Part shown: in pieces, positions 6,189 through 64,000 of the stretch
Position numbering within the stretch: position 1 is the stretch's first letter
Layout of the letters: each line of letters begins with the position of its first letter
NCBI GenBank assembly: GCA_905221615.1
Contig: CAJNDT010000510.1
Location: 1-64,000 of the forward strand
Source of the DNA: Symbiodinium sp. CCMP2592
Lineage: Eukaryota > Sar > Dinophyceae > Suessiales > Symbiodiniaceae
DNA: 64,000 nucleotides
Reading direction: 5' to 3'
The notes under the pieces: generated by a model
Database searches by the model: none
What the model was told of the DNA's origin: nothing
The model's input: the letters and a program-made list of their open reading frames with translations, nothing else
Position numbers and translations under genes: made by a program

Positions 6189-6354
6189 GCATCCATCATG
6201 CGTGCGTGAATGGGTTTTATTTTCCGCCGAAAGTGTAGACAAAGTTTGTCGAAAAAGGAAAACAGTGTTTTCACTTGTGTGTGAGTGACACTAGACAAGC
6301 TTTGCCGTGCAGCTTTCGGCTTGAAGTTGGATCTGTGATCCAAAAAGTTTTTAT
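6189..6354 (+). repeat. Beta terminal repeat A1
   Basis: 166 bp, identical by eye to A2 at 28492-28657 and related to 61002-61166. It contains the odd palindrome GACAAAGTTTGTC (6238-6250) and the hairpin TTGGATC-TGT-GATCCAA (6327-6343). Confidence 0.9.
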
Positions 6355-6428
6355 AGAGTAGCTTGTAGTGCTCCGCAGCAGTGGGGGTCGTCAGCGACGA
6401 CCTTCCACTCCCTTTTATATAACTGTCA

Positions 6429-7817
6429 GTGCCAGTTATGGTTGACCAAGCAGCCCGCACTTATGCGGCTGAGTCGCCAGAGGCGCCGTACCCTAGAAGG
6501 GACGGTCGGGAAAATCAGTTGGCAGCGCCACAATGCCTGCAACGCGTGCGACAGTGTCGCTCCTGCCTCCGCTTTTTGCAGTGCAATCCAATATTTGTGC
6601 TAGAGCAGGCCATGCGTGAAGAAATGGCACAACAGGAGATAAGTTATCTCCTTTGGGCCATTAGCTGCGCCATGCGGGTAGACCCCGCGGTCGTCAGCGA
6701 CGACCACGAATCCCTCAATCGAGCAAGGGAAGGGGAATCCAAAGTTTGGCCCCCCTTCTACCCTTTTGCGCAGATGCAGGGGGAACAACCGGACACCTCA
6801 GGCAGTGCCTATCCGATGCATCGGTATACTGTGTCGCAGCGCGACGTGCCTATGCGGCCAGCGGCCACGCCTGGTTGGCCGTATACCGGCCTCTTTGACT
6901 GGCCCCCCAGTGGGGAGGAAGACAATGTCCCCAAGCTCCAGTGGAGACTCAATTGGGTGGATGCCCTAGAGGGCCACGTGGCTGCTAAGGTGGAAGCCAG
7001 CGGCTTCCAATGGCACCCAGAGGGTAAGGGCAAAGGCAAGGGCGGTTGGGTCAAGATTCTCCCTGCGGAGAAGAAAAAGAAAAAGACTCACAAAACTGCC
7101 AGCGGCAGTACTGACCCCACCGCCTCGTCCAGCACTGCTCTGCCGACAGCGTCGGCATCAGCCTCGGACCCTCCCTTGCCGCCGCCAGCGGCCGCTCCTG
7201 CCAAGCCTGTTTCGGCCACAACAGGCAGCCCGCCCGCAGCCGAAGCTGCCGACGTCGCCCCGCCAGCGGCGGAGCCAGCAATTGAAGTTATTGACACTGA
7301 CAGTGATCAGAACTCGGGAGACTCCGAGGTATCTTTGGCTAGCAGCCAGGCCGCAACGGCAGTGCCGTTCGCGCCGAACGCGAACACTGTGGTCGTGTCC
7401 AGACCGCAGCGTCGCAATCGCCAGCGAGGCTGGCAGTTTCAGCCTGGGGAGGACCCCCAAAATAACGATTGGCGTAACCTTGGGTCAGCGACCGACAACA
7501 GGTACCCCGGCCTGCGTGCGCTAGTAGCGCACGCCAAAAGGGTCTCGCCGCACCTGCACGTCACAGACGTGCACGAATGGCCCTACTGGGCAGCCCCCAA
7601 CTCAGAGAGATGGGAGAAATACCCGGAGAGGCGCGGCGACCTCATGTGTTGCATGCCTTGCGCGCAGCAGGGCTGCATCTCCCAGGGCATGGCGATTTGT
7701 GGGCGGCACTGCTCAGTGGGCAGGAGCCCCCACAATCATCACGAATGCGACAACTGCTATCGCAGCGGCCGGGGTCAGCGACCCCGAAACCGCGGCGTCA
7801 GGGGCGGCCGCCGTTAG
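6429..7817 (+). CDS. Beta accessory ORF 1, Cys-rich C-terminus, function unknown
   Basis: 462 aa, not recognised. The first 190 aa include a Trp-rich stretch (PYTGLFDWPPSGEED, LNWVDALEGHVAAKVEASGF). A Lys-rich KGKGKGG/EKKKKKTHK segment and a long Ala/Pro/Ser low-complexity linker follow. The C-terminus has a Cys/His cluster (CCMPCAQQGC, CGRHC, HHECDNC) that probably binds zinc, then an Arg/Gly-rich tail. The region is full of mini-hairpins (for example 6635-6651, 6689-6705, 7516-7532), which shape the codons in the linker. It sits first in the element, where DIRS-type elements often carry Gag-like genes, so RNA binding is plausible but unproven. The ATG at 6429 is the first in frame; a later start is possible. 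Confidence 0.45.
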   Translation: MPVMVDQAARTYAAESPEAPYPRRDGRENQLAAPQCLQRVRQCRSCLRFLQCNPIFVLEQAMREEMAQQEISYLLWAISCAMRVDPAVVSDDHESLNRAREGESKVWPPFYPFAQMQGEQPDTSGSAYPMHRYTVSQRDVPMRPAATPGWPYTGLFDWPPSGEEDNVPKLQWRLNWVDALEGHVAAKVEASGFQWHPEGKGKGKGGWVKILPAEKKKKKTHKTASGSTDPTASSSTALPTASASASDPPLPPPAAAPAKPVSATTGSPPAAEAADVAPPAAEPAIEVIDTDSDQNSGDSEVSLASSQAATAVPFAPNANTVVVSRPQRRNRQRGWQFQPGEDPQNNDWRNLGSATDNRYPGLRALVAHAKRVSPHLHVTDVHEWPYWAAPNSERWEKYPERRGDLMCCMPCAQQGCISQGMAICGRHCSVGRSPHNHHECDNCYRSGRGQRPRNRGVRGGRR

Positions 7818-8182
7818 GCATTGAGTGCAGCGCGTAGCTGCTGGCCTCTCAGCGAGTCGCCCCCCGTCGGTGCAGCGCACCTCTTTTTGGTTCACCGCCG
7901 ACAGCTCGGCAGCCTCTGCAGGGCGGGCGTCTCCGAGGTACTTGGAACCTCGCCCACAGCGGCGGGCCGACGGCATGCTTTGAATGGCGGCAAAAGATCG
8001 CCGCTAGTCTTCTTCAGTCGTGTGTCACGCGAGCCTGGTAGGTCTCCTCAGCTGTGTCAGCTTCTTAAACCGTGTCGGTTTTCAAGCAGCGCTTTCGTAC
8101 CGCAGCCTTTTCAGCTTAGTAAGTCGCCCCCCGTGCCCAAAACAACCCCGCTTTCAGCGGAAGCCTCTGTCTGCCATCAGCG

Positions 8183-9536
8183 ATGGCGAACCCGACAAAT
8201 GAGCAGATGCTGCAGGCGCTCAGCGCAGTGCCGGAGGCCCAGAGGGCCGCCCTCTACGAAGCCGCCGTCTCCCTATCAGAGATAGGGGACGTGGTGGTGA
8301 ATGCGGCAGAGGCAGCGGAACTCGCTGGTTGGACGAAGCCCGCCAGTGGCGGCACAGAGGCCAATGCAGTCGCGCTTCAGCGACTCTTGCTCGGATACGA
8401 GCCCCCAGTGGTGCCGGCAAACACCGAGCCACCAGTGGCGGCACGTGGTGTCTCTTCCGACGGCCACCGCAGCGCGGTGGCCAGTTTGCCTCTGACGACG
8501 GCTGCAGCGCAGGCCTCGCAACAACGCTCCCCGACCAGTCCCGCTGAGGAAGCGGGGTCTGGCATCAAAGAAGAACCGCTTCCAGCGGAAGCTCCCTCGG
8601 CAGCGCCGGAGGATATGGACGTGGAGGAGCGCAGCGGGCGGCGGGATGAAACCGAGGATGACCGAGGCTCCCGCTCGGAGGAGTCGGAGTCAGAGAGCGA
8701 CTCCCCGCCGCCGCCAACGCAACCGCATCCTCCCCTTGAGGGTAAGGTGGCTCGCAAGTCCTCGAGCCCGGCAGTGCCGGTAGCCGAGAGGAACCAGGCG
8801 CCAGCGGCGCCTGCGAAGGCCGCCGCCCCACGCCACCTCAAGCGGCCCCCCCCACCGCCAGTGGCACGTCGTGGGGAGAGCTCTCGCCCGCGTCCCTGCC
8901 AGCAGGCCCCGCGCAACAACCCTGCTGGCGTCGCTGGGACCCGGGCCAGCGGCCCGGCAACAGACGACCACCCTGATCGAGACGATCAGGAAGAGCGGCC
9001 GCCAGCGGCGGAGCTTCAGCGAGTCTTCGCATGTTCAGTCTGCGACAACGAGCAGATGAACATCTGGAACGACCCGTCGTCGGAGTTCGTGTGCAGTGCA
9101 TGCGGCGAGCATCACGCTTTCAGGGCAGCAGTGCATGCCTATGATCAGCCCAGCGCCAGTGGCGCGGTGGTTTACCAACGATCGTCGCAGCAAGGCCTGG
9201 CAGTGTCCAGAGTGCGGCGTGATGCATTGCACACGCTGCGCCAAGCACTACTCTTGCCCAGGCACTGTCCCGCGGACAGACGGCAAGCTCGAGTACAAGG
9301 GCGACCGCCGCCCTACTAGGGGGCCGCCCGAGTCCCTTCGGTTGACCTTGCAGCGCGAGGCAGCCGAAGCCCGTGAGCGCGAGCACCGCGAACGGGAGGC
9401 CCGCCGCAGAGACGGCAAGGGCAAGGGCAAAGGCAAGGACCAGAGGTCCCGCCGTGACGACGAGGACCGGGACCAGTGGTCCCGTGGTCGCTGGTCTTGG
9501 GACCAAGACCGGCGCTGGAACTACCGTGACTGGTAG
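8183..9536 (+). CDS. Beta accessory ORF 2, zinc-finger protein, frame change near 9100-9170
   Basis: The ATG at 8183 opens a frame to 9319; a second frame (9096-9536) carries the evident continuation. Frame 1 has a short helical N-terminus (MANPTNEQMLQALSAVPEAQ), a Pro/Ala/Glu-rich disordered middle, then CSVCDNEQMNIW...FVCSACGEH. Frame 2 continues with WFTNDRRSKAWQCPECGVMHC...CAKHYSC and a charged tail (EREHREREARRRDGKGKGKGKD) ending in a Trp/Arg/Asp-rich stretch. The four Cys pairs read as one zinc-ribbon/RING-like unit split between frames. Either a +1 frameshift mutation or recoding explains this; no motif decides. No family recognised. Confidence 0.45.
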
Positions 9537-10144
9537 AGACGCCAGCGGCGTGCACCAGTGCCTCCCGAACAGTGTTCGGACACAGTTTTGAAGGGCCAGT
9601 GGCCCTTTCGTCTGCGCCCGTTTCACACAGGTGCAGAGCACAGTAGTGCCGGCACAGTCCGGCCACAGGAGCCTCCGCTGCCCACCGGCCTGTCTGCGGA
9701 TCGCAGAAGGCAGGTGCAGCGCACCTTCACAAGCGGGCTCAGCCCAGACACTCGCACCGCGAGGTCGGAAAAAAGAACACCGCAGGTTGCGTGTGCACAC
9801 AGACCTTGTAGGGCTGCAGTTTCTTTTGCCTAGTAGGTTTCAACGCAGTTTTCCCAGACCTGGTAGGTCCTCTGGAGGTAGCTCTAGGTGCAGTGCCACC
9901 AGCGGGGCCTCGAGTTCTCCAGTGCGTGATTGCCGCAGCCTTTTAAGCCTCACTTCCTTCCCAGCTCTCTCTTCCTCCTCTCCTCCCTCAGGACTGCCCG
10001 GGGAGGGTGCGGGTCGCAGCGCGTCGCTTGAGTTGAGCTTTCCAGAGTGAGTGCGCTTGTGTTCGTGTGCTGGTAGCCCTTTCCTGCAAGCCGCCTGGAC
10101 AACAGCCGTTGGCTTGAGCAGTGCTCCTCTTCCTTGTGTCAAGG
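9537..10144 (+). other. Beta intergenic leader rich in mini-hairpins
   Basis: No convincing gene. Perfect hairpins with AGT/AGC loops include ACGCC-AGC-GGCGT (9539-9551), CCGAAC-AGT-GTTCGG (9565-9579) and AAGGGCC-AGT-GGCCCTT (9591-9607). Confidence 0.6.
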
Positions 10145-10600
10145 ATGCTGCCCAGGGGCAGCGCCCCGGAGGGCGACTTCAACGACCAGGTTAGTAACCT
10201 CTGGTCGTCAATACCACGCAGAGCCGGTGCTCGTCAGCCGTGGGAATCAGCCTCATGGTTTGCGCACAATGCGAGCTGGCCCTGGGAGCTGTCAGTGACT
10301 CGCCCCGCTTCTGTGGGTCCCGTGCCAGTGCTGCACGAGTCCAGCCTGTTGCTCAAGCGGAAAGCTTCCGCTACCACCCAGCCGCTAGTAATAGTAGCGG
10401 AAGACACGGCCTTCGCACTTAAGGTCTGCTCCCGTCGTACAGCGTACGAAGGCGACCGCCGCGACAGCGCGGTTTTCAAACTCACGGCTTTAGTAAAAGC
10501 ATGGCCAGAGGCCTTCGAGATCGTCTCACAGTGTGCCGACGAGGCTGGTCGCGTCGACCTGGACGAGCTCGACTTCAGCATCGAGGCAGCGCTCAGCTAC
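10145..10600 (+). pseudogene. Beta tyrosine recombinase, N-terminal part, cut by gamma
   Basis: An open frame (ATG at 10121 or 10145; 10145 gives MLPRGSAPEG) runs to TAC at 10598-10600, where gamma begins. The same frame resumes at 22166 with AAG, so gamma entered exactly between two codons. The segment matches the N-terminal DNA-binding portion of a YR only by position. It contains long hairpins, including an 11-bp stem with loop AGT and a 2-base bulge (10182-10208). Confidence 0.65.
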
Positions 10601-10820
10601 GTGTGCGTTCGCGCATGCGATGGCGTTGTCGTGTGCGGCGACAGCGAGTGGCCTGCGTTTTGACGCGAGCGAAACTTTAGGCTCATACACTTTCTTCCTT
10701 TCAAATTTTATCATTTAATTTTCGGCACTTGTGCTCGTCTTGCTTTCAACGTGCTTTGTTCGTTGACATCCTCAGCATGACGAAGTTTCGGGCCCAAGAT
10801 CAGCCGAAAATTTTTGTTCA
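10601..10820 (+). repeat. Gamma terminal repeat A1
   Basis: 220 bp starting GTGTGCGTTCGCG and ending TTTTTGTTCA; matches A2 at 21623-21844 apart from TA inserted near CATTTA and one G/C-type change. Confidence 0.9.
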
Positions 10821-10854
10821 TAGGGGGCTGGGTCGCTCTCGGGCTGTCAGCTCA

Positions 10855-11250
10855 ATGGCTGCCGCTGACCGTGCGAGTGCTTCTTTTCCAGAGAGTGACG
10901 ATGCCACCCTTCCAGGCGATGACGATGACATGGTCGAGGTTCTCATTGAACCTTTGCCGCCGACGCCGGAGCCTGCTGCAGTCGCCACTCTTCGCGACCT
11001 TCAGGACTTGCAGGTCCACGTGGGTGCCCAAGTGGCGCCGGTGGCCGATGATGTGGCTGGCCTCATCTTCCAGGTCGGTGAGCTTCAAGCACAGGTGCGT
11101 ACTTTGAAGACTGATGTTTTGTCTCGCCTTGATAGCCTGGCTGAGAGAATGAATGAGCTCGAGGAGGCGATGGCCGAGGTAGCCACTGCCATTGCCCGTC
11201 TTGCTGTCACCAGTGTGCTGCCTGTGCCTCACTCTGACGGCAGCCGCTAG
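10855..11250 (+). CDS. Gamma accessory ORF A, coiled-coil protein
   Basis: 131 aa from ATG 10855. An acidic N-terminus (DDATLPGDDDDMVEVLIE) is followed by a heptad-like coiled coil (LRDLQDLQVHV, VGELQAQVRTLKTDVL, LAERMNELEEAMAEVATAIARL). No known family. ORFs at 13724 and 63370 have a similar acidic/coiled-coil design, suggesting a recurring small structural protein in these elements. The ATG lies 35 bases after the end of A1, so A1 probably serves as promoter/leader. Confidence 0.5.
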   Translation: MAAADRASASFPESDDATLPGDDDDMVEVLIEPLPPTPEPAAVATLRDLQDLQVHVGAQVAPVADDVAGLIFQVGELQAQVRTLKTDVLSRLDSLAERMNELEEAMAEVATAIARLAVTSVLPVPHSDGSR

Positions 11251-11514
11251 GCCCTGCTTTCTTTCAGGGCCGTGCTTTGCAGATCTCCTGACATAGCAGC
11301 TGGCGATGCCCAGACCAGATCGTGCATCACTCAGACTGTGTGCAAAACAGCATTCTTCTGGCGCGATCCCTCATTTCGAGCCTGCGGGTGTCTGCATTGT
11401 GCTGGTGCTGTGTTTTTGCATTCCGCAAGTCAACTTCTGCGCATGCCCGTGTGCAACCACGCTTTTAGTCTACAGGCGTAGGTCTGCCGAGCTAGTGGTA
11501 GTACCTATGGGTAT

Positions 11515-11865
11515 ATGCAGCCAGGCCTCTCCGAAGCTTTTGGCCTGATCGATCGCATTCAGCGGTTACTTGCCATCTTTCGCTTGTGGATCCACGAAGC
11601 ACGTGGTCGGTTGGACGTTGCATTTCTTGAAATTTCTTCTTTGAGAGTGCAGCTGCGCGGGCTTGAAACTTCTCAAGCCGGGAGCCACAACATCCACTTG
11701 AACTTTGAAAGACGGTTTCTTGATCTTGAAGAAGGACTAGAAGATACACAGGAGCGTCAACGCTCCGAGCTTCTCAGGTTTCGCCTGCTGCTTCAACGCC
11801 TCTACCTGTGGCTTGCATTTACTTGCATCGGTGCACTTCAGCTTTTGCGCCTACTGCTGGACTGA
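11515..11865 (+). CDS. Gamma accessory ORF B, coiled coil with C-terminal hydrophobic segment
   Basis: 116 aa. Amphipathic helices (IDRIQRLLAIFRLWIHEARG, FERRFLDLEEGLEDTQERQR) end in a possible membrane segment (LYLWLAFTCIGALQLLRLLL). Its TGA at 11863-11865 is followed after 7 bases by the ATG of ORF C, which suggests a shared transcript. No family recognised; the small size leaves it uncertain. Confidence 0.4.
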   Translation: MQPGLSEAFGLIDRIQRLLAIFRLWIHEARGRLDVAFLEISSLRVQLRGLETSQAGSHNIHLNFERRFLDLEEGLEDTQERQRSELLRFRLLLQRLYLWLAFTCIGALQLLRLLLD

Positions 11866-11872
11866 GAAAACC

Positions 11873-12427
11873 ATGTCTTCTCCTGCTTCAGCCGGGGCAA
11901 CGGATAGGGCCCTGACCCGGCGTGCCGTCTGGGTCCATGACAGTTTTGCAGTGCATCGGCCGCAAATCTCTTCCCGTACTGCTGACTTCGCTCATCAAGT
12001 CGCTTTTGCCAAATTTTGTGAGGACATGCAAACACAGCAGGAACCGCTGGCCGAGCAGTTGGCCAGACAAGCCTGGGCTCGCCATGACATCGACCACCCC
12101 GATGCTGCTTCGTTGACGCCTTCGGAATCTGGAGATATCGGTGAAGAACGAGACCCTCATACCGTCTTCGCTGGTCTTTCCGATGAACGCAAAGAAGCCT
12201 TGGCTGCCGGATCCAGCTGGGAGGCACCGACTCGAATCGTGCATCGCGCTCCCTCTGAGCCGCCGGCTACCGCTTCAGATGGCCATGGCGATTGGTTGCG
12301 CGGCCTCAGTGGCCGTCTTGATGACGTTGAGAGTTTTTGCGGGTCAATCATCGACCCCCGGTTCTCGCGTAGTCTTCATGCTCGCTTGCTCCGAGTGGAG
12401 CGCCTGCTGAACGTTCCCGAGCAGTAG
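11873..12427 (+). CDS. Gamma accessory ORF C, unknown
   Basis: 184 aa from ATG 11873 (MSSPASAGATDRAL). The middle is polar and acidic (HDIDHPDAASLTPSESGDIGEERD) and the C-terminus is helical with regular Leu/Arg (FSRSLHARLLRVERLLNVPEQ). No recognised domain. It follows ORF B at 7-base spacing. Confidence 0.45.
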   Translation: MSSPASAGATDRALTRRAVWVHDSFAVHRPQISSRTADFAHQVAFAKFCEDMQTQQEPLAEQLARQAWARHDIDHPDAASLTPSESGDIGEERDPHTVFAGLSDERKEALAAGSSWEAPTRIVHRAPSEPPATASDGHGDWLRGLSGRLDDVESFCGSIIDPRFSRSLHARLLRVERLLNVPEQ

Positions 12428-13723
12428 CTGTGTTCAGACCATATCACATGTGCACCGGATCCCTGGTCCCAGGCTTGAGAAATCCGGCCGTGTGCCTCTG
12501 CCTTTCAGTTTCATGCACGTAACTGCCTGCGCTTACACACGTGCTGCTATGAGCGTCTTGCTTTCCGCCAATATTCTTAGCGGGGGATTCAAGCCCCATT
12601 GGCTTTGCTGGGTCGACGCTCCCTTTCGAGGTCCGGATGTCTGCCATAAATCTTCTTCTAGCTTTGCTCCGGATGTCTGCAATAAGTCTTCTTCTAGCTT
12701 TGCTTGAGCAGGCCAGATCTCTTGACGTACTGAGGTGGCCCATTTCTCAGCAACCCGGGCTGTTGAAATGTGCTCCTGGTAAGCTGTCACTCGGTCCTTG
12801 TTGCAGGTTGCTGTCGACATCGTGAGCTTCAGGCCGATCTTATCCTGGCAAGCCGGTGCCAGAGTTTGGCAAATATTTCGGGAGGTCGATCCGTCTGGTG
12901 ATCGACGTCCTGTACTTCAGGCTGCCTTTCGCCTGGCAAACTGGTGCTGGGATGTGACGAGTCCAGTCAAGAAGGTCGGGTCCTCCTGGCTCCGGCGACT
13001 TCCGCAGCCTGACCCTCAGCAGTTCCACTCCCAGCAAACTGGGCTGGGAATCGGCATGACTGCTTTGCGGCAGGAGACAACTCTCCTGTTGAAGCCGCGA
13101 TCTCCTCAGCAACCGGTCTGAGCGAGTCGCCTGGTTCGACGTTCCGAATCTCGGCAAACAGGAGCTGGGAATCTTCGTCACCCCGTGGCTGTTGGCGTTC
13201 TCCTGCCAAGCCGCGAGCTCCTCAGCAACTGGGTTGAGTGAGTCATCTGGCGTGGCGGTCTCGCAGGTCTGAGACCCTGGTCCTCCAGACTGCCACGTCG
13301 TGGGCTCCTCAGCAACTGGGTTGAGTGAGTCACGTGGCCTGGCGATCTCGCAGGTCTGGGGCTCTGGTTCTCCGGGCCGCTCGATGGCTTTGGCACCAAC
13401 CATGATATGTTTCGGGTCGCCGTGGCCGACTCAAGTTTCTTATCATGGCTTATGCGACTTTCGTGGCAGCCCTTTCAGGTCGGTGATCCATGCTTCGGCT
13501 CGTGATCCGCCTCATGCTGGATGCCTGCCGTGAGCACCGGGACTTGTTAGCTCCAGCCATAACTCGGTTCAGCACCAAAACGTGTGTGCCTTGGAGATGC
13601 TCCGGATTGCATTGTTCGCAACACCGATTCCATTCGACAGCGGGGTTGCCAGCATCGTCTTGTTGTGCACAGGTTCCAGAGCTTAACTGCACTGTGTAGT
13701 CGATCGGTGTTCTCCCTAGCGAC
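12428..13723 (+). repeat. Gamma non-coding interval with two tandem repeats
   Basis: No convincing ORF in 1.3 kb. A 36-bp unit (TCCGGATGTCTGC...) occurs twice at 12632-12667 and 12668-12703 with two differences. A degenerate unit of roughly 97-116 bp containing CTCCTCAGCAAC and GAGTGAGTC/GAGCGAGTC starts at 13102, 13218 and 13315. Recurrent GGCAAAC/GGCAAGCCG phrases fill 12845-13200. Confidence 0.6.
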
Positions 13724-14188
13724 ATGGACTCCTTGACTGATGAACAACGGGAGTACCTTGCCACACTGAATCGTCGTGGCCCGGCTAGGCTGCGTGATGC
13801 CAGTCGCTCTCGCAGCCGCGACCGCCGTGCCATCGCTTCTTCGACCGATGAGCGCTCCCGCCCTTGGCGTGCACCGAGTCCGCTGCTGGTCCAAGGACCA
13901 CCTGCTCTTGCGGAACAGGTGCGGCTCTTGCAGAGCAGCATCGAGATTATTGAGCGCCGCCTGACAAACCTCAACATTGGTCAAACGCAGCTGCTCATGG
14001 TGCTTGGACACCACCCAGACTTTGGGGTTCCGTTCGGGGCCATCGCTGAGTTTGTTGACACCATGAAGGCCACCGTTCAGGACATCAAGGCGTCGATTGA
14101 GGATCTTCGCGCTAATTCTGCAGAGCAGTGCATGCTTCTTAGCAGCCGCCTTGACCGCCTCGAGGAACTGGTTCAGGCTCGCACGTGA
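13724..14188 (+). CDS. Gamma accessory ORF D, SR-rich N-terminus and coiled coil
   Basis: 154 aa. An N-terminal Ser/Arg-rich stretch (RLRDASRSRSRDRRA) suggests RNA binding or nuclear targeting. A long coiled coil follows (LAEQVRLLQSSIEIIERRLTNL, MKATVQDIKASIEDLRANSA, LSSRLDRLEELVQ). No known family. It precedes YR by 139 bases. Confidence 0.5.
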   Translation: MDSLTDEQREYLATLNRRGPARLRDASRSRSRDRRAIASSTDERSRPWRAPSPLLVQGPPALAEQVRLLQSSIEIIERRLTNLNIGQTQLLMVLGHHPDFGVPFGAIAEFVDTMKATVQDIKASIEDLRANSAEQCMLLSSRLDRLEELVQART

Positions 14189-14327
14189 CTGGATCGCCTG
14201 GTGCCGACTTAGCTCTGTGTGACAAAACGTGCCGCTCAAACTTAAGTGATGTCTAAGTGCCGGTAACATTTCATGCTGCCTTTGCATTGTTGCCTTATGG
14301 CCTGTTTTCTTCTCGAGATCGGGGCCA

Positions 14328-16379
14328 ATGGTGAACTTCCGCCGCCGATGGAGTTTGCAGGCATCTCGAGCCTCTGAAGATGCTCGATCCCGGAGTCCTT
14401 CCGTTCGCATTGCTGAAGCGGCAGAGCGTGCTGATTCTTTCTTCGAGGAGCATTCACCTCTTCTTTCGGAAGATGCTAGATCCTGGAGTCCTTCCTTCTT
14501 CAATGCTGCATTGTGCGCCGGTTCTCCCCTTGGAGATCTGGCTGACAGCAACCACGGCCTAGATCCGGCCCCCGAACGCAGCTCGGGATCCGATGGATGG
14601 GAACGTGTGGGCTCTGCACTGCCTCAGGACCCTGGCCCGGTCCTAAGTTCCGAAGTTCAGCGAGCCGTGGTGTATCAACGTGATGTGTCCCTGCCGAAGC
14701 TTCCCTACGAACATGGCATTTGGGGCCTCGTCTTTGGGTCTCCTGCATCCCTGCCCACCGCCCGCTTCCCTGCACCAGTTGGTCCCCGGCCTCAACCGAT
14801 CCCCCCCCCCCCTGACCCGTCCACGAATTCCCTCGAGCTCTCTGCTGCAGCTCCCCCTGACGTCAGCCTGGCCCGGATCAAAGCCGCCACTTTTCGTGTC
14901 ACTGATGCAGCCCTTCGTGACCGTTGCTTGGTGCAGCTTAAGACTTTGTTGCTTCTTGACCCGTCGGCCACCAAGACCGGCATTCAGATGACTACGTGCT
15001 TCGGCAAAATTTTGGAACCTGACCGAGCCCTCTTGGTTCTTCAGGACACATTGCGGCCCAAGGCCACTGGCACCATCAGCAAACGCACAGGCTCTCTCTG
15101 GCGCTTGGCTCACTACCTGGCCTCCGTGGACGGCCGCAGCCCCTTCATGGTTTCGGAGCCCCTGCTCTATGAGTATCTCTGCTCACTTCGTGAAGCTGAA
15201 AGTGGTGCTACCTCCGGCGCCTCCGCTTTGGAGGCCTTACGCTTCGCTGACGGTTTGTTTCGCTTCCAGCGGATCTCTCTGCGTGAGGTGGACAGCGCCC
15301 GCATTCGTGGTGTGGCGCATGCCATGTATGTTCGCAAACAAAAGCGCCAGCAAGCCCCTGCCTTGACTGTTCGTGCCATCCGCTTCCTGATGGCATGGTG
15401 CTGCGACCCGTCCCGGCCTCTGCATACGCGCATTATCTCTGGCCACCTTCTTGCGTGCATCTTTGCAGTCGCACGTTGGTCTGACTTGCGCTTCCTTGCC
15501 TTCTTCCGGGTGCTCTCTGACAACGAGTTCAGCATCTTCGAGTCCGCGACTTCCCAGCACAAGACCGCACACTCCAAGGAGGCCCAGGTCGAGCTCCTTC
15601 CATTCATTGGCTTAGGTCAATGGCCGGGCTGTGAGTCATGGGCTGCGTGTCTTGAGACTCTTCGAGCCGAGTCCGACCTCTCGCAGGGCCTACCATCCTG
15701 GAACGAACGCGAGCAGAAGTGGGCTCTCGGTGATCCCATGACTACTTCCGAGGCAACTGGATGGTTGCGGGAGATCCTCTCTCATGAGCTTGACCCCGCC
15801 GATGTGCGGGCACTTCGAGCCCACTCCTGCAAAACAACCTTGTTGGCCTGGGCTGGCATGAGCCCTCTCTTCACTCGTGAAGAACGCACACTGCTTGGAC
15901 ATCACATTGAGGCTTCTACTCGGTCGGCAACTACATACGACCGCCAGGCCATCATTCGTCTTCAGGCCAAGGTCTGGCACATGCTGCTTTCCATCGACTC
16001 CGGCGAGTTGAATCCTGATGCTGATGCTCTTGGCCGATTGCGTTCCATGGTGCAGGTACATGCACCCCGTCCAGCTTCTGCTCAGACCTCCGCGGAACCT
16101 GCATCTAGCTCTTCTTCCGATGATGAACCTGCCGGTCTTCCTGCGCCGCTACATCGAGATCGAGTTCCCCTGCCGGCCGCCGCCTACGAGTACGCCTGGC
16201 TTGTGCACTCTGTGAGCGGTATTGTCCATGTGCAGTCTCCCCACTCACCTGAGCGTCTGATGTGCGGTCGCTCCATTTCTTGCAATTTTGAGCATGTTTC
16301 CCCAGCCGACCTTGATGTTGAGCAGACTGCATTTTGTGGCCAGTGCAGCGCCTCACGTTTGCTCTCCGCCGCTGCATGA
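14328..16379 (+). CDS. Tyrosine recombinase of element gamma
   Basis: 683 aa; catalyses integration of the circular DNA copy. The N-terminal ~170 aa is Ser/Pro-rich. A SAM-like DNA-binding domain follows (GSLWRLAHYLASVDG...VSEPLLYEYLCSLREAE). Catalytic residues of the YR fold: Arg in ARWSDLRF (about 382), His-x-x-Lys in AHSCKTTLLAW (about 498; canonical HxxR has Arg), a second His in LLGHH (about 525) and the nucleophile Tyr in TTYDRQ (about 538). The tail has a Cys-containing ribbon (MCGRSISCNF, FCGQCSASRLL). YR lies upstream of Gag and Pol, opposite to classical DIRS elements. The ATG at 14328 is the first in frame. Confidence 0.85.
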   Translation: MVNFRRRWSLQASRASEDARSRSPSVRIAEAAERADSFFEEHSPLLSEDARSWSPSFFNAALCAGSPLGDLADSNHGLDPAPERSSGSDGWERVGSALPQDPGPVLSSEVQRAVVYQRDVSLPKLPYEHGIWGLVFGSPASLPTARFPAPVGPRPQPIPPPPDPSTNSLELSAAAPPDVSLARIKAATFRVTDAALRDRCLVQLKTLLLLDPSATKTGIQMTTCFGKILEPDRALLVLQDTLRPKATGTISKRTGSLWRLAHYLASVDGRSPFMVSEPLLYEYLCSLREAESGATSGASALEALRFADGLFRFQRISLREVDSARIRGVAHAMYVRKQKRQQAPALTVRAIRFLMAWCCDPSRPLHTRIISGHLLACIFAVARWSDLRFLAFFRVLSDNEFSIFESATSQHKTAHSKEAQVELLPFIGLGQWPGCESWAACLETLRAESDLSQGLPSWNEREQKWALGDPMTTSEATGWLREILSHELDPADVRALRAHSCKTTLLAWAGMSPLFTREERTLLGHHIEASTRSATTYDRQAIIRLQAKVWHMLLSIDSGELNPDADALGRLRSMVQVHAPRPASAQTSAEPASSSSSDDEPAGLPAPLHRDRVPLPAAAYEYAWLVHSVSGIVHVQSPHSPERLMCGRSISCNFEHVSPADLDVEQTAFCGQCSASRLLSAAA

Positions 16380-16506
16380 CTGTGCCTTGCCGAGAAAATC
16401 GCTTTGTGCTTGCCTTGCCTAGCCTTCGCATTTTGCCTCTGCCTCAGCTTGTGGTCTGTGCCCGCACCAAGTTACGGCTCACCACGGCAATTCAGACTGC
16501 TGCGCC

Positions 16507-17754: not shown

Positions 17755-17757
17755 CTA
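17752..17757 (+). other. Candidate stop-codon readthrough site (UGA CUA) between Gag and Pol of gamma
   Basis: TGA 17752-17754 then CTA. The Gag frame continues open for 1,208 codons to 21381. The first in-frame ATG of Pol is well downstream of the TGA, so readthrough is the simplest way to make Pol. Confidence 0.75.
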
Positions 17758-21381: not shown

Positions 21382-21411
21382 GGGTGAGGGCAGACGTGCT
21401 TCCAAACAGGG

Positions 21412-21622
21412 GACATCATCCGCACGTCGATCGCCCCAGCAGTCAAAACATCAGTCCGAGAGAAGTGTACGTGCGAGTGACTGTCCGCGTTGACCTCTTA
21501 ACTTCGCAAACATATTTGATTGGAGAAACACATATCATCATTTATATTACATATTCGGATTCGGCCAAATACTCGGCCAAATACCTTTTGAGTGTGAGCC
21601 GACGGTTTTCGTCGCAAGCGAC
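21412..21622 (+). repeat. Gamma terminal repeat B1
   Basis: 211 bp from GACATCATCCGCACG to CGCAAGCGAC; differs from B2 (21955-22165) at one base (GAGA/GAGG). Confidence 0.9.
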
Positions 21623-21844
21623 GTGTGCGTTCGCGCATGCGATGGCGTTGTCGTGTGCGGCGACAGCGAGCGGCCTGCGTTTTGACGCGAGCGAAACTTT
21701 AGGCTCATACACTTTCTTCCTTTCAAATTTTATCATTTATAATTTTCGGCACTTGTGCTCGTCTTGCTTTCAACGTGCTTTGTTCGTTGACATCCTCAGC
21801 ATGACGAAGTTTCGGGCCCAAGATCAGCCGAAAATTTTTGTTCA
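21623..21844 (+). repeat. Gamma terminal repeat A2
   Basis: 222 bp matching A1 (10601-10820). Homology to A1 stops exactly where the 12-mer CCCACCCACCAC begins (21845-21856). The A2-B2 spacer 21845-21954 has no gene. Confidence 0.9.
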
Positions 21845-23608: not shown

Positions 23609-23744
<136 letters not shown>

Positions 23745-53590: not shown

Positions 53591-53596
53591 GACATT

Positions 53597-56500
53597 TTGT
53601 CCACTACTGCCGACATCCCGCTCGAGATGCGCTCCTTCAGGTGTCCCTACTGTCAGGAGGGCCTCCCACTTGGTCTCAGTAGGACCACTAGGGAACAATC
53701 CATCAAGAACCACTTCAAGACCAGGCATCGTAGGAGAAAGATCACCTTCAAGTCCCTCTCGAAAGCCCGAGCTAAGCAATTCCAAGCCAATCCTGAGCTG
53801 CAGCAAGGTTACAAGAATGGTGCTATTGCTAAGTCCAAGAGTCATACGCGCCGCGCTATCGATGCGCAAGATTCCAGTGAGGGTGGCCACGCTTTGTGGC
53901 TTTTCACTCCAGACTGGAAGTCCTGGCCCTCTGTGTCGGGCAAGCCGCACGGACGACAAGGCAACCTCTGGACCTGCCGGTCCTGTCTTAGAGTCTCTTC
54001 ACGGGCAGAGTTTCGCAACCAGTGCAAGGGCAGACCTGGCAATGCAGGCAAATGTCCCGGAGGTCAGTGGAGACTGTGGCAGAGGCTTCAGAGCAGTCCT
54101 GGTAACCGGGACAAACTGCTTCAGATCTGGAACTTGCGCCAGAGTGCCGCGGACAGTCTCTTTGTCTCAGGCGTTCCTCAGGCCGCTGAGTCTCGTCTCG
54201 CTTCTGCCGGCAGCGGCAAAACGCGACACCTTCCGGGTGTCAAAACTGAGGCTGGCTCCAAGAAAAACGAGGCCAGTAACCCAGGACCGTCGTCGTCTAG
54301 CTCCTCTACTCCCCGTGACAGGCTTAGCATCGTCAGTTGGAACTCAGGCGGAGCGCCGGGTCTCTGGAGACTCAGGGAGGAGGCGTTCCTTGGTGCTGAC
54401 GTGCTTTGTGTTCAGGAAACCAAGGCCAACCCGGCTGAGAGGCTTGCTTTTGCCAAATGCTGCAAACAGGATGGGTATTTTGCGTACTGGGCGCCGGGGC
54501 TTCCCACGGTTGGGCGGTGGCAGGCCACTCGTGAAAGGGGAGGGCTTTTGCTCCTTGTTTCCAGACGATGCAAACAAAAGCTCGTTGATATCAGGACAGG
54601 TGAAAACTCACAAGTTCTTGTGGCGCACGTGGACGGCACTTGCCTTCTCGGAGTTTACTCCCCTCCCGAATGTGAAGAGGAAACGGCTGGCCTCCTTCAC
54701 GACGCGTCGTAGGTCACACGGGTGGGTCGCGCTTGGTGACTTCAACGCCCCCCCCCTCCGACGGCTGCTGCCTCTGACTCCCCTTGCGGTCACCTCTTTC
54801 GGTCCTGGAGCGGGTACGCTGTTACGGATGGCAAACCCACAAGGTGGGAAGGCACTGAGGCGATAGATTGGTTTGTCGCTGGGGCCAACTCTGCTCTCCA
54901 GTGGGAAGGGCAGATCCGACACACGGCTCTCAGCGACCACGTTCCCGGCAGTCGCCCAACACTCAGGCTGGACGTCTCAAGCCTGGCCCTAAATGGGTCA
55001 AACCACTGGGAAACTTCGCTGCAGAGGGAATGTGCCCGGGCCCCTGTCTGACCTCGCTGCGGCCCTTAGCAAGGACAGTTCGGATGTGCAGGCCTGTTGG
55101 GACTTGTTCATGTCTGCACTCTACAAAACGTTTTACAACGCTACTAGAGCTGTTTCTGTGCGCAGCGAGGCTCCTGAGATCAAACGTGAGTGTCATGATC
55201 TGTTGCACCAAACCGGCATGCGTGAAGAGTGGAAGGGCAGGCCCGCGAAACACCAGACTGTCAGTGTAGCGGATCTGCGTAAAGGCCCCCCAGGCACCCA
55301 GGAAGCTAACCGTAGGCTTAACCGCAGACTTGCCAGGCTGTATGAGCTTCGTAATCTCACTGCCAAGGCAGTGCAGAGAGACGAGCAGGAACTCACTCCT
55401 GCTATGGTTGCGTTGTGTGCTAAGCTGTGGCGAAACCGTCCTCTCCCTGACAGGGTCACTCAGCTCTCCGCTCTGTGTAGGCAAGAGATTGGCAACACGA
55501 AGAGCTCACGTGAGTCGTTAGAGAAGTCGCAGAAGCAGAAAACTGCACCGAGTGGCGGAATCGACTCAAGGACCCTTCGCTTCAGGGTTTGTCGCGTTGG
55601 CTGCGCGGAAAGGACCAGGACCCTGCTGGAGTTGTGGTTTTCGACGACCAAGGTGACGCTTTGGACAGTCATGAGGTCACGGACAAGATCAATAGACACT
55701 GGCGCCGGGTCTGGGCCGAGCAGCAACAGGCTGAGAGCCCTTCTCGGAGACCATCGCTGCCACCCTCGTGCAGGACTTTGGCAACCCAGTTTTCGCCAAT
55801 TGGTCTGAGTGGACCGAGCAAGATCTCAGAGCTGCCAAGGCCAAAGCGGCCGGTTCCGCGGGAACTGACCATTGGAGTGTGGAGGAAATCCGCTGCTTGC
55901 CCCCCGAGGCAGTGCACACTTGGTACCTTCTGACCCAACAATGGCTGCGATGTGGCGCTTTACCACTTCAACTTCGCCAGGTTCGGATGGTTAACTTAGT
56001 TAAGGTTCACAAGCTTCGTGCTAACCGTCGGCTGTCCGTCGCTGATTGCAGCCCTATCAGCGTGATGTCGATTTTCTGGAGAGTGTTTGCCAGCGCCTGG
56101 AGTCGCAAAGCCAGGGCTTGGGTTGACAGCAACCTTCCGGCGGAGATCGGCTCGCGAGCCGGGGCCGCTGGAGCTGAAGACTTGGCGTCTGAGCTACAAG
56201 ACGCCCTCGTGGAGAATGGAGGCTTTCTGGCCTCACTGGATTATGCACAGTGCTACGACAGGATGCACGGCGAAGCCGCCACTGCCGCGTTGGAGCAGCT
56301 CGGGTGGCCCGGTCAGCTCTGTCCGCTCATGCGACAGGCCTGGCTCCATGACAGATTTGTGAGCTGGGATCGACACACCAGCGCAGACATCCTCAAGGCG
56401 TCGGCGGTTCCTCAAGGATGTCCCCTGGCGCCGGTCACGCTTCTGATTTGGATGACCAGTGGTCTTCGTTGGACGGAGGCCCGGCTGACCCACACGGGCC

Positions 56501-61001: not shown

Positions 61002-61166
61002 GCTTCCATCATGCGTGCGTGAATGGGTTTTATTTCCCGCCGAAAGTGTAGACAAAGTTTGTCGAAAAAGGAAAACAGTGTTTTCACTTGCGTGTTGTGA
61101 ACACTAGACTAACTTTGCCGCGCAGCTTTCGGCTTGAAGATAGGATCAGTGATCCTAGTTTTTTGT
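61002..61166 (+). repeat. A1-type terminal repeat of the beta-like element
   Basis: Diverged from beta A1 (GCTTCCATCATGCG against GCATCCATCATGCG; several substitutions later). Its hairpin TAGGATC-AGT-GATCCTA (61141-61157) keeps pairing through a compensatory change relative to TTGGATC-TGT-GATCCAA of beta. Confidence 0.85.
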
Positions 61167-63369
61167 CTGGTAGAAGTAGCAGTGGGCTAGTAGCCCGTCG
61201 GATCCAAAGTGATTTTTCTATAGTAGAATTGCTAGCTCCTTTGATCCAAAGTGATTTTTCTGGTAGAGTAGCGGTGGGCTAGTAGCTCCTCTGTAGGGCG
61301 TGGTAGTTCCTGTAGCGCCATGGATGGTCCAGGCCGTGCCCTTAATGCAGAGTCTGCATTAAATTAGCACCTTGGCCAAAGCTGGACGGGTTATTAACCC
61401 CCTTAGCTGCGTCAGTGACGCTCGCACGGACGCGGCAGTGCCGCATGTCCCTCAGTTCCTGCGTTGTAATCCAGTGGATATACTCGCGCAGGCCATTCGT
61501 GAGGATCTCGGACTCAGGAGATAGTTATCTCCTTTTCGCGGTTAGTAACCTGCTGAGTGTCCGTGGGGGCAGAGCCCCGAGGCTTGAGGCTGCCTTGCAG
61601 GCATCTTGCTGTTTAGAAAACAGTGTCAACATTGTTGTGACTGCTCAGTGCCGCTTATGCGGCAGCACTGCTGGAGGTTTTCCTGTGCAGCTTCTGCATG
61701 TAGCAGTGCTGCGAGCATGCAGGCAGCAGTGCTGCCGATGCCTCGCATCCTAAACCTCAGGTCACTGCCCCGAGGCTTCAGGTTCTCATGCATGCTTTTT
61801 CTGTTTGGCACACATGCTGTCTGCAATGCTTGGTGTTGGTCAGGGTTGCCCTGCAGCCTCTGCTGTTGGCGTTTTCTCCAGCGCAGCTGTGCCTGTAGCA
61901 GTGCTGCAGGCACGCAGGCAGCAGTGCTGCCTATACCTCGCATCCTAAACCCCAGGGCAGTGCCCCCCTCTTGCATGCTTCTTACTGTTTCGTAAACGTT
62001 CTGGGCAGTACCCCGAGGCTTCAGATCCTCCGCCTGCTTCCTACTGTTTAGTAAACAGTATGTCAATGCTTGCGAAGTCCACGCCAGGCTCTGCGGCCGC
62101 TGCTGTTGATGTTTTCTCCAATGCAGCTTGTGCGTGTAGTAATGTTGCAGTCAAAAAAGCCGCGTACGCTTATGCCTCGCATCATAAGCCTCAGGGCAGT
62201 GCCCCGAGGCTTAAGGTCCCCCGCCTGCTCTTTACTGTCTAGCAAACAGTCTGTCAGTGCTTCGTGTCGGTGAAGTTTTGTTGCGAGGTCGCGCTAAGCC
62301 CTGAGACCGCTGTTGTTGCGGGGTCGGCCCCCAACGCAGCTTGTTCGCAGCGCAGTGCTGCCTGCACGCGGAGAGCAGCGCTGCTAATGCCTTGCTTCAT
62401 AAGCCTACGGGCAGTGCCTTGAGTTTTAAGGCCTTCAGGCATGCTTTTTACTGTCTAGTAGACAGTGATGCCAACGTTTCGTGCCGGTCGCGTTTTGTTG
62501 CAGAGATGCTGTGGGCGAGCAGGCAGCAGTGCTGCCGATGCCTCACATCCTAAACCTCATGGCGGTGCCTCGAAGCACTTTGTGCGTGTAGCAGTGCTGC
62601 AGGCTCGCAGGCAGCAGTTTTGCCTATGCCTGCACCCTAAACCCCAGGGCAGTGCCCTAAGGCTTCAAGCCCTCATGCATGCTTCTTGCTGCTTAGTAAG
62701 CAATAAAACTTCATGCAGGCAGGAAGGGACGCGCTAGGGCAACCAGGAATTGAGAGATCTCTTCCTCGCGTTTAGCAGTGCTATGCGCGTAGCCCCTGTG
62801 ACACCGTCAGTGACGGACATGCAGTTTTTGAGACGAAGTGCCGCGGGCCAGTGTCCATTTGTCGGCAGCTTATGCCTTCATAACTGGTCAGAGTCAGGGC
62901 CTGGGCAGGCTCTGGCTGTCATTTGTGCTCAAGCGCTGCCACTGGCAGTCAAGGCACTGAGCTCTGTGCCGTTTGCTGCCCGCCTCGGTTGGCAAGTTGC
63001 CTCCTCGCTTGTTTCTTGTTGCGCGCAATTCACCCTTTCAACCGTAGACTGCTTTGTGGCTTCGGTTAGGAGGAGCTTCCTCCGTGCGCCATGTTTTCCG
63101 CAGGGCGACAAGCTAACGCAGACAATGCGGCGCAGGCGATGCGTGCTAGTTGTGAGTTTGTATTTTGATTCAACTGTGTTTTCTTATCTGTGTCGAAAAG
63201 AACCTTTGCCTCTCACTGCTTTTCGGCACAAGCTTAACAACTAGCGTTCTACTCGTACTGCATCGCATGCAACATTTCTTTTTTCAAAACGCTTTGGAAC
63301 AACAGCACGCACTTGACACATCAGCTCTGCTTACCGCATTGCATGGCAGTTTTCCTCCATCTCGACGCC
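61167..63369 (+). repeat. Non-coding leader with diverged tandem units, each ending in a hairpin
   Basis: Hairpins near 61607, 61983, 62042 (TACTGTTT-AGT-AAACAGTA, 62042-62060), 62232, 62450 and 62688 each follow a CCTCGCATCCTAAACC...GGCAGTGCC...GAGGCTT phrase. Units of about 190-240 bp are diverged. Longest hairpin: TTAATGCAG-AGT-CTGCATTAA (61342-61362). No convincing ORF. Confidence 0.65.
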
Positions 63370-63600
63370 ATGGACCCGCCCGAGACAGCAACGCCGGACC
63401 AACTTGTCCGCGCATTGCAGAGCCTCGCAGAAGACTGCATCGAGATGGGGGCTACGCTTCATGAGCGCATTGATACACTTTCGCATCGCCTGCAGGAAGC
63501 CTTGGCCAAAGTTGGCAGTCTGGAGCATCGCATTGCACTCTTGGAAGGCGCGCCGCAGTGCACCGATGCCGTAGATTTCTCTTTTGAAGAAATGGATTGA
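63370..63600 (+). CDS. Small coiled-coil ORF of the beta-like element
   Basis: 76 aa from ATG 63370 (MDPPETATPDQL). A coiled coil (IDTLSHRLQEALAKVGSLEHRIALLEG) is followed by an acidic end (DFSFEEMD). Resembles in design, not clearly in sequence, the gamma ORFs at 10855 and 13724. No known function. Confidence 0.45.
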   Translation: MDPPETATPDQLVRALQSLAEDCIEMGATLHERIDTLSHRLQEALAKVGSLEHRIALLEGAPQCTDAVDFSFEEMD

Positions 63601-63691
63601 TTGTGTGGTTTGAAACGCACTGCCCGGCATCTCAATACCGCTGCTTGCTCAGCGTTTCTTCAGGTGTTCTTAGCCGGTTTCTTCAGAAGCC

Positions 63692-64000
63692 ATGTCACAA
63701 CGCCAAGGCAATAAGAAGCAACGCCTTGCTACCCCCGAGCTGCGGACCGCAACTCACAGCACTGCAACGCTGGTCGAGGCACTCTTGCATCTTAGCAGCG
63801 ATCTCCCAGCAAGCCCTGGTTTTGTTTTGGGCAGTCTGCCAGAAGTTTTTCTATCGCAACGATCTGCAAGCATTCTTCTCCGCTTTCTCGAGATGTCAGA
63901 TAGAAGACCGCTCTCCTTCACGCATAGCACAGTACATCGACGCATGGCAAGGATATGGGATCTCACGCCCGGAGATCGTCAGATCCTAACAACCAACCTG
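63692..64000 (+). CDS. Partial ORF open at the window edge, unknown
   Basis: ATG 63692 opens a frame with no stop to base 64000 (103 codons): MSQRQGNKKQRLATPELR, then a helical LVEALLHLSSDLPASPGFVLG and FLEMSDRRPLSFTHSTVHRRMARIW. Position corresponds to gamma accessory ORF C. No family recognised. Confidence 0.4.
   Translation, partial: MSQRQGNKKQRLATPELRTATHSTATLVEALLHLSSDLPASPGFVLGSLPEVFLSQRSASILLRFLEMSDRRPLSFTHSTVHRRMARIWDLTPGDRQILTTNL

Follow-up and report, generated by a model that had tools for sequence, protein, structure and literature searches.

In the 64,000-nt stretch of the Symbiodinium sp. CCMP2592 genome analysed here (assembly GCA_905221615.1, contig CAJNDT010000510.1, positions 1 to 64,000 of the forward strand; in the following called the window), a retrotransposon termed beta carries on its sense strand a large number of short perfect hairpins with the three-base loops AGT, AGC or AGA, and these hairpins are kept by selection. 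Judged by its sequence, beta (6189-29106) is a DIRS-like retrotransposon. It is interrupted by a second retroelement, gamma (10595-22165), and contains open reading frames (ORFs) for two cysteine-rich proteins (ORF1 and ORF2), a tyrosine-recombinase-like protein, the gene of which is split by gamma, a Gag-like protein and a reverse transcriptase (RT). The hairpins are likely to act at the level of RNA. An even chance is given to the reading that they are dispersed binding sites for a triloop-reading protein encoded by the element itself (ORF1, ORF2 or Gag), with a role in packaging or in a ribonucleoprotein particle.

Hairpins with AGH loops in the window

Hairpins with a perfect stem of 5 bp or more and a loop of three bases were searched for throughout the window. 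In total, 212 of them were found, whereas 20 local dinucleotide shuffles gave 74.2 on average, and the excess is concentrated in beta and in a second beta-type element starting at position 61002 (el2), as claimed in a preliminary description of this DNA. Separated by loop sequence and compared with 40 dinucleotide shuffles, AGT (47 vs. 1.2), AGC (37 vs. 1.75) and AGA (21 vs. 1.3) are strongly overrepresented, and AGG is weakly raised (6 vs. 1.5). For loops of four bases, the same minimal stem length gives 104 hairpins vs. 79 in shuffled sequence. The loop sizes 1, 5 and 7 are raised as well, presumably because the same hairpins are read one pair further in or out. All 20 inverted repeats cited in the preliminary description are present, and every one of them has the loop AGT, AGC or AGA; the coordinates are exact for 19, and the hairpin given as 23153-23168 is located one base off, at 23154-23168.

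A strict AGH hairpin is defined here as a perfect stem of at least 5 bp with the loop AGT, AGC or AGA (H = A, C or T). In beta and el2 together, 102 of the 888 AGH trinucleotides serve as the loop of such a hairpin, of which 85 (of 772) belong to beta, counted up to position 29110, and 17 (of 116) to el2. Gamma, which is nested in beta, contains none among 467 AGH and is usable as a negative control, the related element alpha contains one among 288, and the window outside of these four elements two among 1477. The scarcity in alpha and gamma noticed earlier is thereby confirmed, and within the sequences examined, the hairpins stay restricted to beta-type elements, to which the relatives of el2 described below are now added. 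El2 itself is hairpin-rich, as stated before, but its strict hairpins reach only to 62816, and none is found on the plus strand from there to the window end. The feature is strand-specific: among the reverse-complement trinucleotides, of which beta has 518 and el2 102, not one is a hairpin loop.

The closing pair is C-G in 73 of the 102 strict hairpins, compared to a C in front of 335 of the 780 other AGH trinucleotides in the same regions. Apart from this, the stems are nearly free in sequence, with 76 distinct inner 5-mers in 102 hairpins, and the loop is AGC or AGA in 56 of them. With a relaxed score, in which perfect 4-bp stems as well as G-U pairs and mismatches are allowed, 155 of the 772 AGH in beta and 2 of the 467 in gamma are hairpin loops, vs. 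101 of 10366 non-AG loops in beta; by this score, the AGH hairpins run from end to end through beta at 3-12 per 500 nt. Stems with non-AGH loops are also raised in beta (29 of 9848 trinucleotides vs. 9 of 10255 in gamma). TGT loops are slightly raised in beta and el2 (5 of 161) and may be a minor loop variant; one of them is the beta counterpart of an AGT hairpin in el2. The loop set (GT, GC or GA after the A) may also match the dinucleotides of splice donors in dinoflagellates. No Rfam family reached its gathering score anywhere in the window. Two examples of the hairpins are:

6634-6652, plus strand: example hairpin AGGAGATA[AGT]TATCTCCT, identical in L041 and L042, two relatives of el2
26828-26848, plus strand: 9-bp example hairpin CGAGACGAT[AGT]ATCGTCTCG, within the RT gene

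The first of these, 19 nt in the ORF1 region of beta, recurs at L041:2566 and L042:210, and a variant which is one base shorter in the loop region is located in el2 at about 61516.

Hairpins in coding sequences

As a control for coding constraints, synonymous codons were shuffled within each ORF, which preserves the protein and the codon usage; the ORF at 8183 was read beyond its frame break, and the ORF at 23607 includes a TC repeat. The six beta ORFs contain 58 AGH hairpins, compared to a summed mean of about 2.0 after shuffling. Equality with codon-matched controls, which had been named beforehand as a result speaking against a special hairpin family, is thus not seen in beta. For the six alpha and gamma ORFs, 1 AGH hairpin was found and about 0.5 were expected.

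The loops of the hairpins in the beta ORFs lie in phases 0, 1 and 2 in 27, 6 and 25 cases, respectively, vs. 145, 195 and 233 for all AGH there (p = 4.6e-5). A loop in phase 1 couples codon positions 1-2 and 3-3 and therefore leaves the fewest wobble partners; avoidance of this phase is what a structure built around a protein would give. A cost at the amino acid level is not visible in the RT: of the residues in hairpins, 38 of 77 are identical to P0001, the closest full-length relative (the others are incomplete, and the stretch in question is frequently missing from them), compared to 442 of 895 outside of hairpins. Where P0001-P0003 all agree, beta deviates at 16 of 42 columns in hairpins and at 96 of 355 others (p = 0.15).

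Constraint at stem sites and origin of the hairpins

Copies of beta were aligned in four blocks of 17, 21, 34 and 26 sequences (window included), which were kept by limits on coverage and length; in one comparison of copies, 4 of 27 loci were left out for short coverage. A site was regarded as variable if two or more sequences deviate from the commonest letter, rows counted as missing were left unscored, and the first 1.47 kb of beta lies outside the alignments. Codon positions were supplied for 10121-10594, 22446-23543, 23700-25022 and 25284-28244, whereas the end of ORF1 and the whole of ORF2 had none and are therefore included in the class labelled as non-coding.

In the recombinase-like, Gag and RT ORFs, 12 of 139 third codon positions within stems, as defined on the window copy, are variable, compared to 531 of 1694 outside (p = 9e-10). 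For all other positions (spacers, repeats, the end of ORF1 and ORF2), the numbers are 19 of 436 within stems and 432 of 3182 outside (p = 1.7e-9), and among the loop positions in this class 1 of 105 is variable. Fourfold sites are variable in 13 of 94 cases within stems and in 331 of 921 outside, if stems present in at least 30% of the copies are used, a definition which itself favours conserved sites.

All 14 strict hairpins of the RT gene align ungapped to P0001 over the five residues around the loop. At 8 of the 14, the residues of P0001 are unable to encode an AGH loop in that place, and the length of 9 of the 14 is not a multiple of 3. An example is:

27372-27386, plus strand: hairpin GACTTC[AGC]GAAGTC, which codes for DFSEV; P0001-P0004 have PFAEV, indicating substitution and not insertion

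The alignment of beta copies, which the preliminary description had proposed for distinguishing inserted hairpins from paired changes, revealed that variable hairpins are mostly gained or lost through one or a few substitutions. Hairpin 9004 is an exception, as it is missing from 13 copies due to an indel, and a few other rows contain one or two indels.

Copies of beta and relatives of el2 in the genome

The genome was searched at the DNA level (1.098 Gb in 5383 contigs) and 40 of 274 candidates were scored, by which copies of the beta RT were located at at least 40 places, window included, with identities of 92-100%. The 28 beta-like loci including the window contain 1578 strict AGH hairpins in 218,021 bases (7.2 per kb), with a density of 5.6-7.8 per kb in the 27 loci other than the window, and the flanks of these 28 loci contain 2 in 28,032 bases. 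Six further RT copies (91-94% identity) carry 16-21 AGH hairpins each on the coding strand in 3.1 kb. In five RT loci of other families (L036-L040, 3.4-3.5 kb each, with 25-38% identity to the beta RT in aligned blocks), the coding strand has 0, 0, 1, 0 and 0 AGH hairpins, or 1 of 658 AGH in total, and the opposite strand has 0-2 per locus. The 8 kb beyond the window end contain 2 of 433 AGH in hairpins on the plus strand. DNA of distant relatives was found neither in viral contigs nor in prokaryote genome contigs.

The second hairpin-rich element of the window is located close to its end:

61002-62850 (3′ limit approximate), plus strand: el2, with 17 strict AGH hairpins; its beta-type A terminus is followed by about 1.65 kb lacking long ORFs

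The A terminus of el2 is 92% identical to that of beta over 155 nt if gaps are allowed. The modules which follow it over about 1.65 kb are repeated in tandem, and no whole ORF above 146 amino acids is found in them. At least two close copies of el2 (96% and 88%) are present in its own genome among the matches listed, and many relatives with 66-91% identity in blocks are present among the matches listed of 230. The relative L043, continued by L041, opens with the same A terminus (94% to the first A repeat of beta) and contains 18 strict AGH hairpins of 199 AGH in 3.6 kb; the longest ORF in L041 has 175 amino acids. In L042, 12 of 89 AGH are loops of strict hairpins in 1.9 kb, some of them the same hairpins as in L041, because the two have 1245 nt in common at 99.7%. 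In L044, a stretch of 0.9 kb further on, 4 of 6 hairpins with a three-base loop have an AGH loop. The relatives of el2 may be non-autonomous partners of beta or the long 5′ part of another element.

Anatomy of beta and its encoded proteins

Beta contains split direct repeats in the order A-coding-B-A-B, and the B-A junction and the end of B could be located. The following features were assigned:

6189-10594, plus strand: 5′ part of beta with the A1 repeat, ORF1, ORF2 and the start of the recombinase-like gene; strict AGH hairpins from 6238 to 10449
6189-6354, plus strand: A1 terminal repeat, 166 nt, with copies at 28492-28657 (100%) and 61002-61167 (81%, ungapped)
6429-7817, plus strand: ORF1, Cys/His-rich with an RG-rich C terminus; 12 strict AGH hairpins; candidate loop-binding protein
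8183-9319, plus strand: ORF2, with paired cysteines and a basic tail, frame broken here; candidate loop-binding protein
10595-22165, plus strand: gamma, nested retroelement without strict AGH hairpins
22166-29106, plus strand: 3′ part of beta with the remainder of the recombinase-like gene, the Gag-like ORF, the RT ORF and B1-A2-B2; strict AGH hairpins from 22285 to 28988
22446-23546, plus strand: C-terminal part of the tyrosine-recombinase-like protein, gene split by gamma
23607-25025, plus strand: Gag-like ORF with a C-terminal zinc knuckle (weak match); homologous ORFs in alpha and gamma
25284-28247, plus strand: RT ORF, 987 amino acids; 14 strict AGH hairpins
28284-28491 (start approximate), plus strand: B1 repeat with three strict AGH hairpins
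28492-28657, plus strand: A2 repeat of beta, identical to A1
28895-29106 (start approximate), plus strand: B2 repeat with three strict AGH hairpins, as in B1

The B hairpins are duplicated together with their context at 28310/28921 and 28465/29080. A long TC repeat at 23550-23700, read as Ser-Leu runs, is located just upstream of the ATG of the Gag-like ORF. Gamma is DIRS-like as well, with A repeats at 10595/21617 and B repeats at 21412/21955, and sits inside the recombinase-like gene of beta.

ORF1 has no Pfam match and no match to the other window ORFs compared. A match in Symbiodinium sp. CCMP2592 with 98% identity covers 12% of the query, and a relative with 45% identity was found in a JGI contig. 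The frame of ORF2 is open in 6 of 16 copies scanned. Its Pfam matches to zinc-ribbon or GATA-finger families are all below the threshold, and relatives are annotated in Symbiodinium sp. CCMP2456, in which the cysteine-rich region is best conserved (91 of 144 residues identical). In the comparison with three ORFs of alpha and six of gamma, no convincing match to ORF1 or ORF2 was found; one match of 29 residues to the basic tail of ORF2 (E 0.07) was set aside.

The remaining proteins of beta have homologues in the related elements, namely Gag, recombinase-like protein and RT in gamma and Gag and RT in alpha. The match of the recombinase-like ORF to Phage_integrase stays below the curated cut-off in the window (E 9e-4) as well as in an open copy (E 4e-4); the ORF is similar to the gamma ORF g14328 (E 5e-13), which itself has no Pfam match. 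The match of the RT ORF to RVT_1 (E 8e-5) is also below the curated cut-off. The beta RT is 28% identical to the gamma RT over 989 positions and has 17 database proteins as matches at E <= 0.001, some of which carry PF00078. At the same threshold, neither an RNase H profile nor a DNA methyltransferase was obtained with Pfam for the RT ORF; its C-terminal part aligns with P0001.

Paired changes, wobble pairs and folding

Two hairpins of el2 show paired changes relative to a related sequence of the window:

61141-61157, plus strand: hairpin TAGGATC[AGT]GATCCTA in el2; the beta A repeat has TTGGATC[TGT]GATCCAA, a paired change from T-A to A-T
62450-62466, plus strand: hairpin ACTGTCT[AGT]AGACAGT in a repeated el2 module; paired change from U-A to C-G compared to the sister module at 62042

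For the el2 modules, six were chosen by eye and a degenerate one near 61800 was left out. In their hairpins, 89.6% of the cells hold standard pairs, vs. 25-56% if the partner is slid, and two pairs are changed on both sides, in one cell each. The comparison of el2 with L041 and L042 comprises 134 cells, with 2 paired changes, 10 changes to G-U, 5 to A-C and 17 gaps; a fifth comparison overlaps itself and adds identical or gapped cells only. One of the two paired changes lies in an AGH hairpin which is kept in L042, the other at a place where the loop of el2 is non-AGH. The beta copies contribute one unambiguous paired change, at pair 4 of hairpin 23808, and another, ragged one at 9544.

At stem pairs 2-4, G-U is more frequent than A-C; the window has 14 G-U and 5 A-C, and the copies have 13 and 5, respectively. 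The corresponding numbers are 2 vs. 6 and 5 vs. 5 at pair 5, and 5 vs. 10 and 5 vs. 16 at pair 6. The folding energy was calculated in 120-nt windows relative to shuffled sequence, resulting in mean z values of -1.03 (plus) and -1.10 (minus) for beta, -0.44 and -0.21 for gamma, and -0.88 and -1.54 for el2.

A selected RNA structure had been one of two explanations suggested at the outset. Its first part, selection, is borne out by the lower variability of stem sites, some paired changes and the strand-specific loops. For its second part, RNA rather than DNA is likely but unproven: the sense RNA is favoured by the strict orientation of the loops, and the G-U pairs near the loop lean the same way without being a proof.

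Possible role of the hairpins

Short hairpins of one design occur on the sense strand of beta over its whole length, in all ORFs as well as in leaders, spacers and terminal repeats: an A-G-H triloop caps a stem of 5-9 bp, the sequence of which is almost arbitrary and the closing pair of which is usually C-G. In the proposed mechanism, these hairpins would represent many equivalent, dispersed sites for one triloop-reading protein of the element. The putative reader may be ORF1 or ORF2, which are present in beta and in none of the alpha and gamma ORFs compared, or Gag. By its binding, the RNA of the element would be set apart from host RNA, and cooperative coating or packaging could follow. Relatives of the el2 type, which have the A terminus in common with beta and no long ORF in the parts read, may be recognised in trans via the same sites.

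A trans-acting reader private to the lineage is suggested because of the free stems, the fixed triloop, the C-G closure, the sense orientation, the density from end to end and the near absence of hairpins in related elements. ORF1 and ORF2 are restricted to beta among the ORFs compared and, with their cysteine pairs and their basic or RG tails, resemble proteins that bind nucleic acids. More tentatively, and with rather less confidence than doubt, the array may be described as a distributed structural self-tag, for which tolerated sites have been rewritten into about 100 interchangeable AGH hairpins for a dedicated protein, with relatives that lack long ORFs riding along.

Several observations weigh against a selected RNA structure read by such a protein. 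The hairpins in beta are not regularly spaced but random in position, with a coefficient of variation of 0.78 vs. 0.77 for the null model. Stems with non-AGH loops are also less variable (10 of 59 third codon positions and 3 of 111 others), which makes them a mixed control, although part of them may belong to the same feature, because their number is raised in beta as well. The pairing in the el2 modules was reached by 27 of 500 shuffles, a modest control, and 13 of the 134 cells compared with L041 and L042 are broken otherwise than by A-C. Paired changes are few in the beta copies, since these are about 88-98% identical. For pairs 2-4, the excess of G-U fails to reach significance (p = 0.06 and 0.10, with two sets that overlap), pair 1 has 0 G-U vs. 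3 A-C in the window and in the copies, and over all six pairs the excess is gone in the window set (21 vs. 24). A difference in folding energy in favour of the plus strand is found neither in beta nor in el2. Finally, a protein-imprint test gave no clear sign of hairpins in P0001-P0006, relatives which are known only as protein, so that deep conservation is unproven. In this test, which is noisy, the ratio to the shuffled mean reached 2.6-3.3 for ORF1, RT and the recombinase-like part of beta and 0.8 for its Gag; values of 0.8-1.8 were obtained for P0001-P0006, of 2.1 for P0018 and P0019, which are relatives of ORF2, and of 0.3-1.9 for the alpha and gamma ORFs.

Among the alternatives to a reader encoded by the element, a host protein could read the hairpins in the sense RNA, for stability, export, translation or as a splicing shield, and the element would exploit or evade it. 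With Roquin, a host protein is known which recognises a triloop almost irrespective of the stem (PMC6294493), and the occurrence of the hairpins in coding and non-coding parts alike would fit such a reader. This explanation is nevertheless unlikely. Alpha, gamma and the RT loci L036-L040 are nearly free of hairpins, and a general host requirement on retroelement RNA is not to be expected when related elements of the same genome lack them; the flanks of the beta-like loci, with 2 hairpins in 28 kb, also argue against it.

Distinctly improbable is a function in single-stranded DNA, i.e., in cDNA or an extrachromosomal circle, where the hairpins would serve as a pause, as protection or in recombination during reverse transcription or integration. 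The loops are strictly sense-oriented (85 vs. 0 in beta), and gamma has a related recombinase-like ORF yet no hairpins. The equal folding of the palindromes on both strands, the recombinase-like protein encoded by beta and the presence of hairpins in the terminal repeats agree with a role in DNA; the wobble pairs point both ways, since pairs 2-4 lean to G-U but G-U is no commoner than A-C over all stem pairs.

The other explanation suggested at the outset, a mutational process which writes AGH-centred palindromes by RT template switching or a tiny inserted unit, is very improbable. The mostly unrelated stem sequences, the tandem repetition of the el2 modules and the indel at hairpin 9004 would be in agreement with it, but all 14 hairpins of the RT gene align to P0001 without a change in length, the copies mostly differ by substitutions, and the phase bias and the reduced variation of the stems are contrary to it. 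Based on this indel, phase and constraint evidence, with 9004 as the single exception, an insertion unit or template switching is rejected. Chance, composition or codon usage as the origin can be dismissed with near certainty, for the GC-rich sequence does lift the baseline of perfect stems, but the synonymous shuffle (58 vs. about 2), the dinucleotide shuffle (AGT 47 vs. 1.2) and the absence of reverse-complement loops in beta exclude it.

Comparison with known systems

The SymbioDIRS elements of Symbiodinium have repeats in the order A-coding-B-A-B and RTs that align poorly with Pfam (PMC5890265). Beta resembles them in its RT ORF, its separate recombinase-like ORF, the order of its repeats and the weak Pfam match of its RT. 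In contrast to their description, the main text of which contains neither "hairpin" nor "stem-loop" (PMC5890265), beta has the AGH array and two extra cysteine-rich ORFs, and its RT ORF gave no Pfam match to a DNA methyltransferase at E <= 0.001.

The coat or core protein of single-stranded RNA viruses and of hepatitis B virus reads a loop motif which recurs in multiple, dispersed stem-loops (PMC7612645). Many stem-loops with a common loop motif are likewise distributed across beta. For hepatitis B virus, an RGAG motif and three modelled sites are given in that account (PMC7612645), whereas beta is a retrotransposon with 85 strict or 155 relaxed triloops and a putative reader.

The constitutive decay elements bound by Roquin are similar to the beta hairpins in their short, sequence-free stem, their triloop, the shape-specific reading and the C-G closing pair in solved complexes (PMC6294493). 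They differ in their Y-R-N loop and in their occurrence as one or two sites in host 3′ untranslated regions (UTRs), as described there (PMC6294493), compared to an A-G-H array through coding sequence in beta. The hairpins were rejected as constitutive decay elements, as their loops are A-G-H and not Y-R-N, with TGT weakly present (5 of 161).

Rnt1p recognises a four-base AGNN tetraloop, and the iron-responsive element has a C-G pair across its AGU loop and a C bulge. An AGNN tetraloop was rejected for beta, as the excess lies at loops of three bases (212 vs. 74) and not of four (104 vs. 79). In the pseudotriloop of the iron-responsive element, the AGU triplet is read by IRP (PMC8466369). The AGT loops of beta resemble this apical AGU; unlike the iron-responsive element, AGC and AGA are also common in beta, and the hairpin is not a singleton in a UTR (PMC8466369). 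With AGC or AGA in 56 of 102 strict loops, the AGU of an iron-responsive element does not describe the set. The likenesses to Roquin sites, iron-responsive elements and packaging signals are to be taken as analogies, and no membership is claimed.

Other features of the window

An ORF of 930 amino acids at 52074-54866 passes the curated cut-off for an OTU cysteine-protease domain (E 3.1e-5). Inverted arms of 460 nt consisting of GAC-type repeats (31212-31671 and 41063-41522) are 100% complementary and located 9.4 kb apart, accompanied by arms of 198 nt (99%) at 31020/41519. A further inverted repeat of 171 nt (47788-47958 and 48126-48296) is 99% complementary with 167 nt in between. Direct repeats of 167 nt (36158-36324 and 38678-38844, 92%) surround an ORF of 711 amino acids at 36304, for which no Pfam match at E <= 0.001 was obtained, and may represent a small element of the long terminal repeat type.

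Possible implications for own-RNA recognition

The recognition of their own RNA by retroelements and RNA viruses is a long-standing question. Distributed packaging signals are usually hard to see, as their loop motifs are degenerate and their sites few. The AGH signal is so strong that a single genome sequence suffices to reveal it, a guess at its reader has only a small number of ORFs to consider, and adjacent related elements without hairpins provide natural controls. Among the matches listed in a search of full-text literature, which covers mostly papers outside of subscription and was evaluated by titles and the beginnings of abstracts, no comparable hairpin array was found in retrotransposons or dinoflagellates. 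To our knowledge, a shape-based distributed self/non-self code has not been known for any retrotransposon.

The silent sites of this transposon are under strong constraint, apparently for the shape of the hairpins, and the presence of the same kind of hairpins in elements without long ORFs may provide a footing for a parasitic relation between non-autonomous and autonomous elements. If the proposed reading is true, the distinction of self and non-self would be coded in the shape of the RNA and not in one packaging site.

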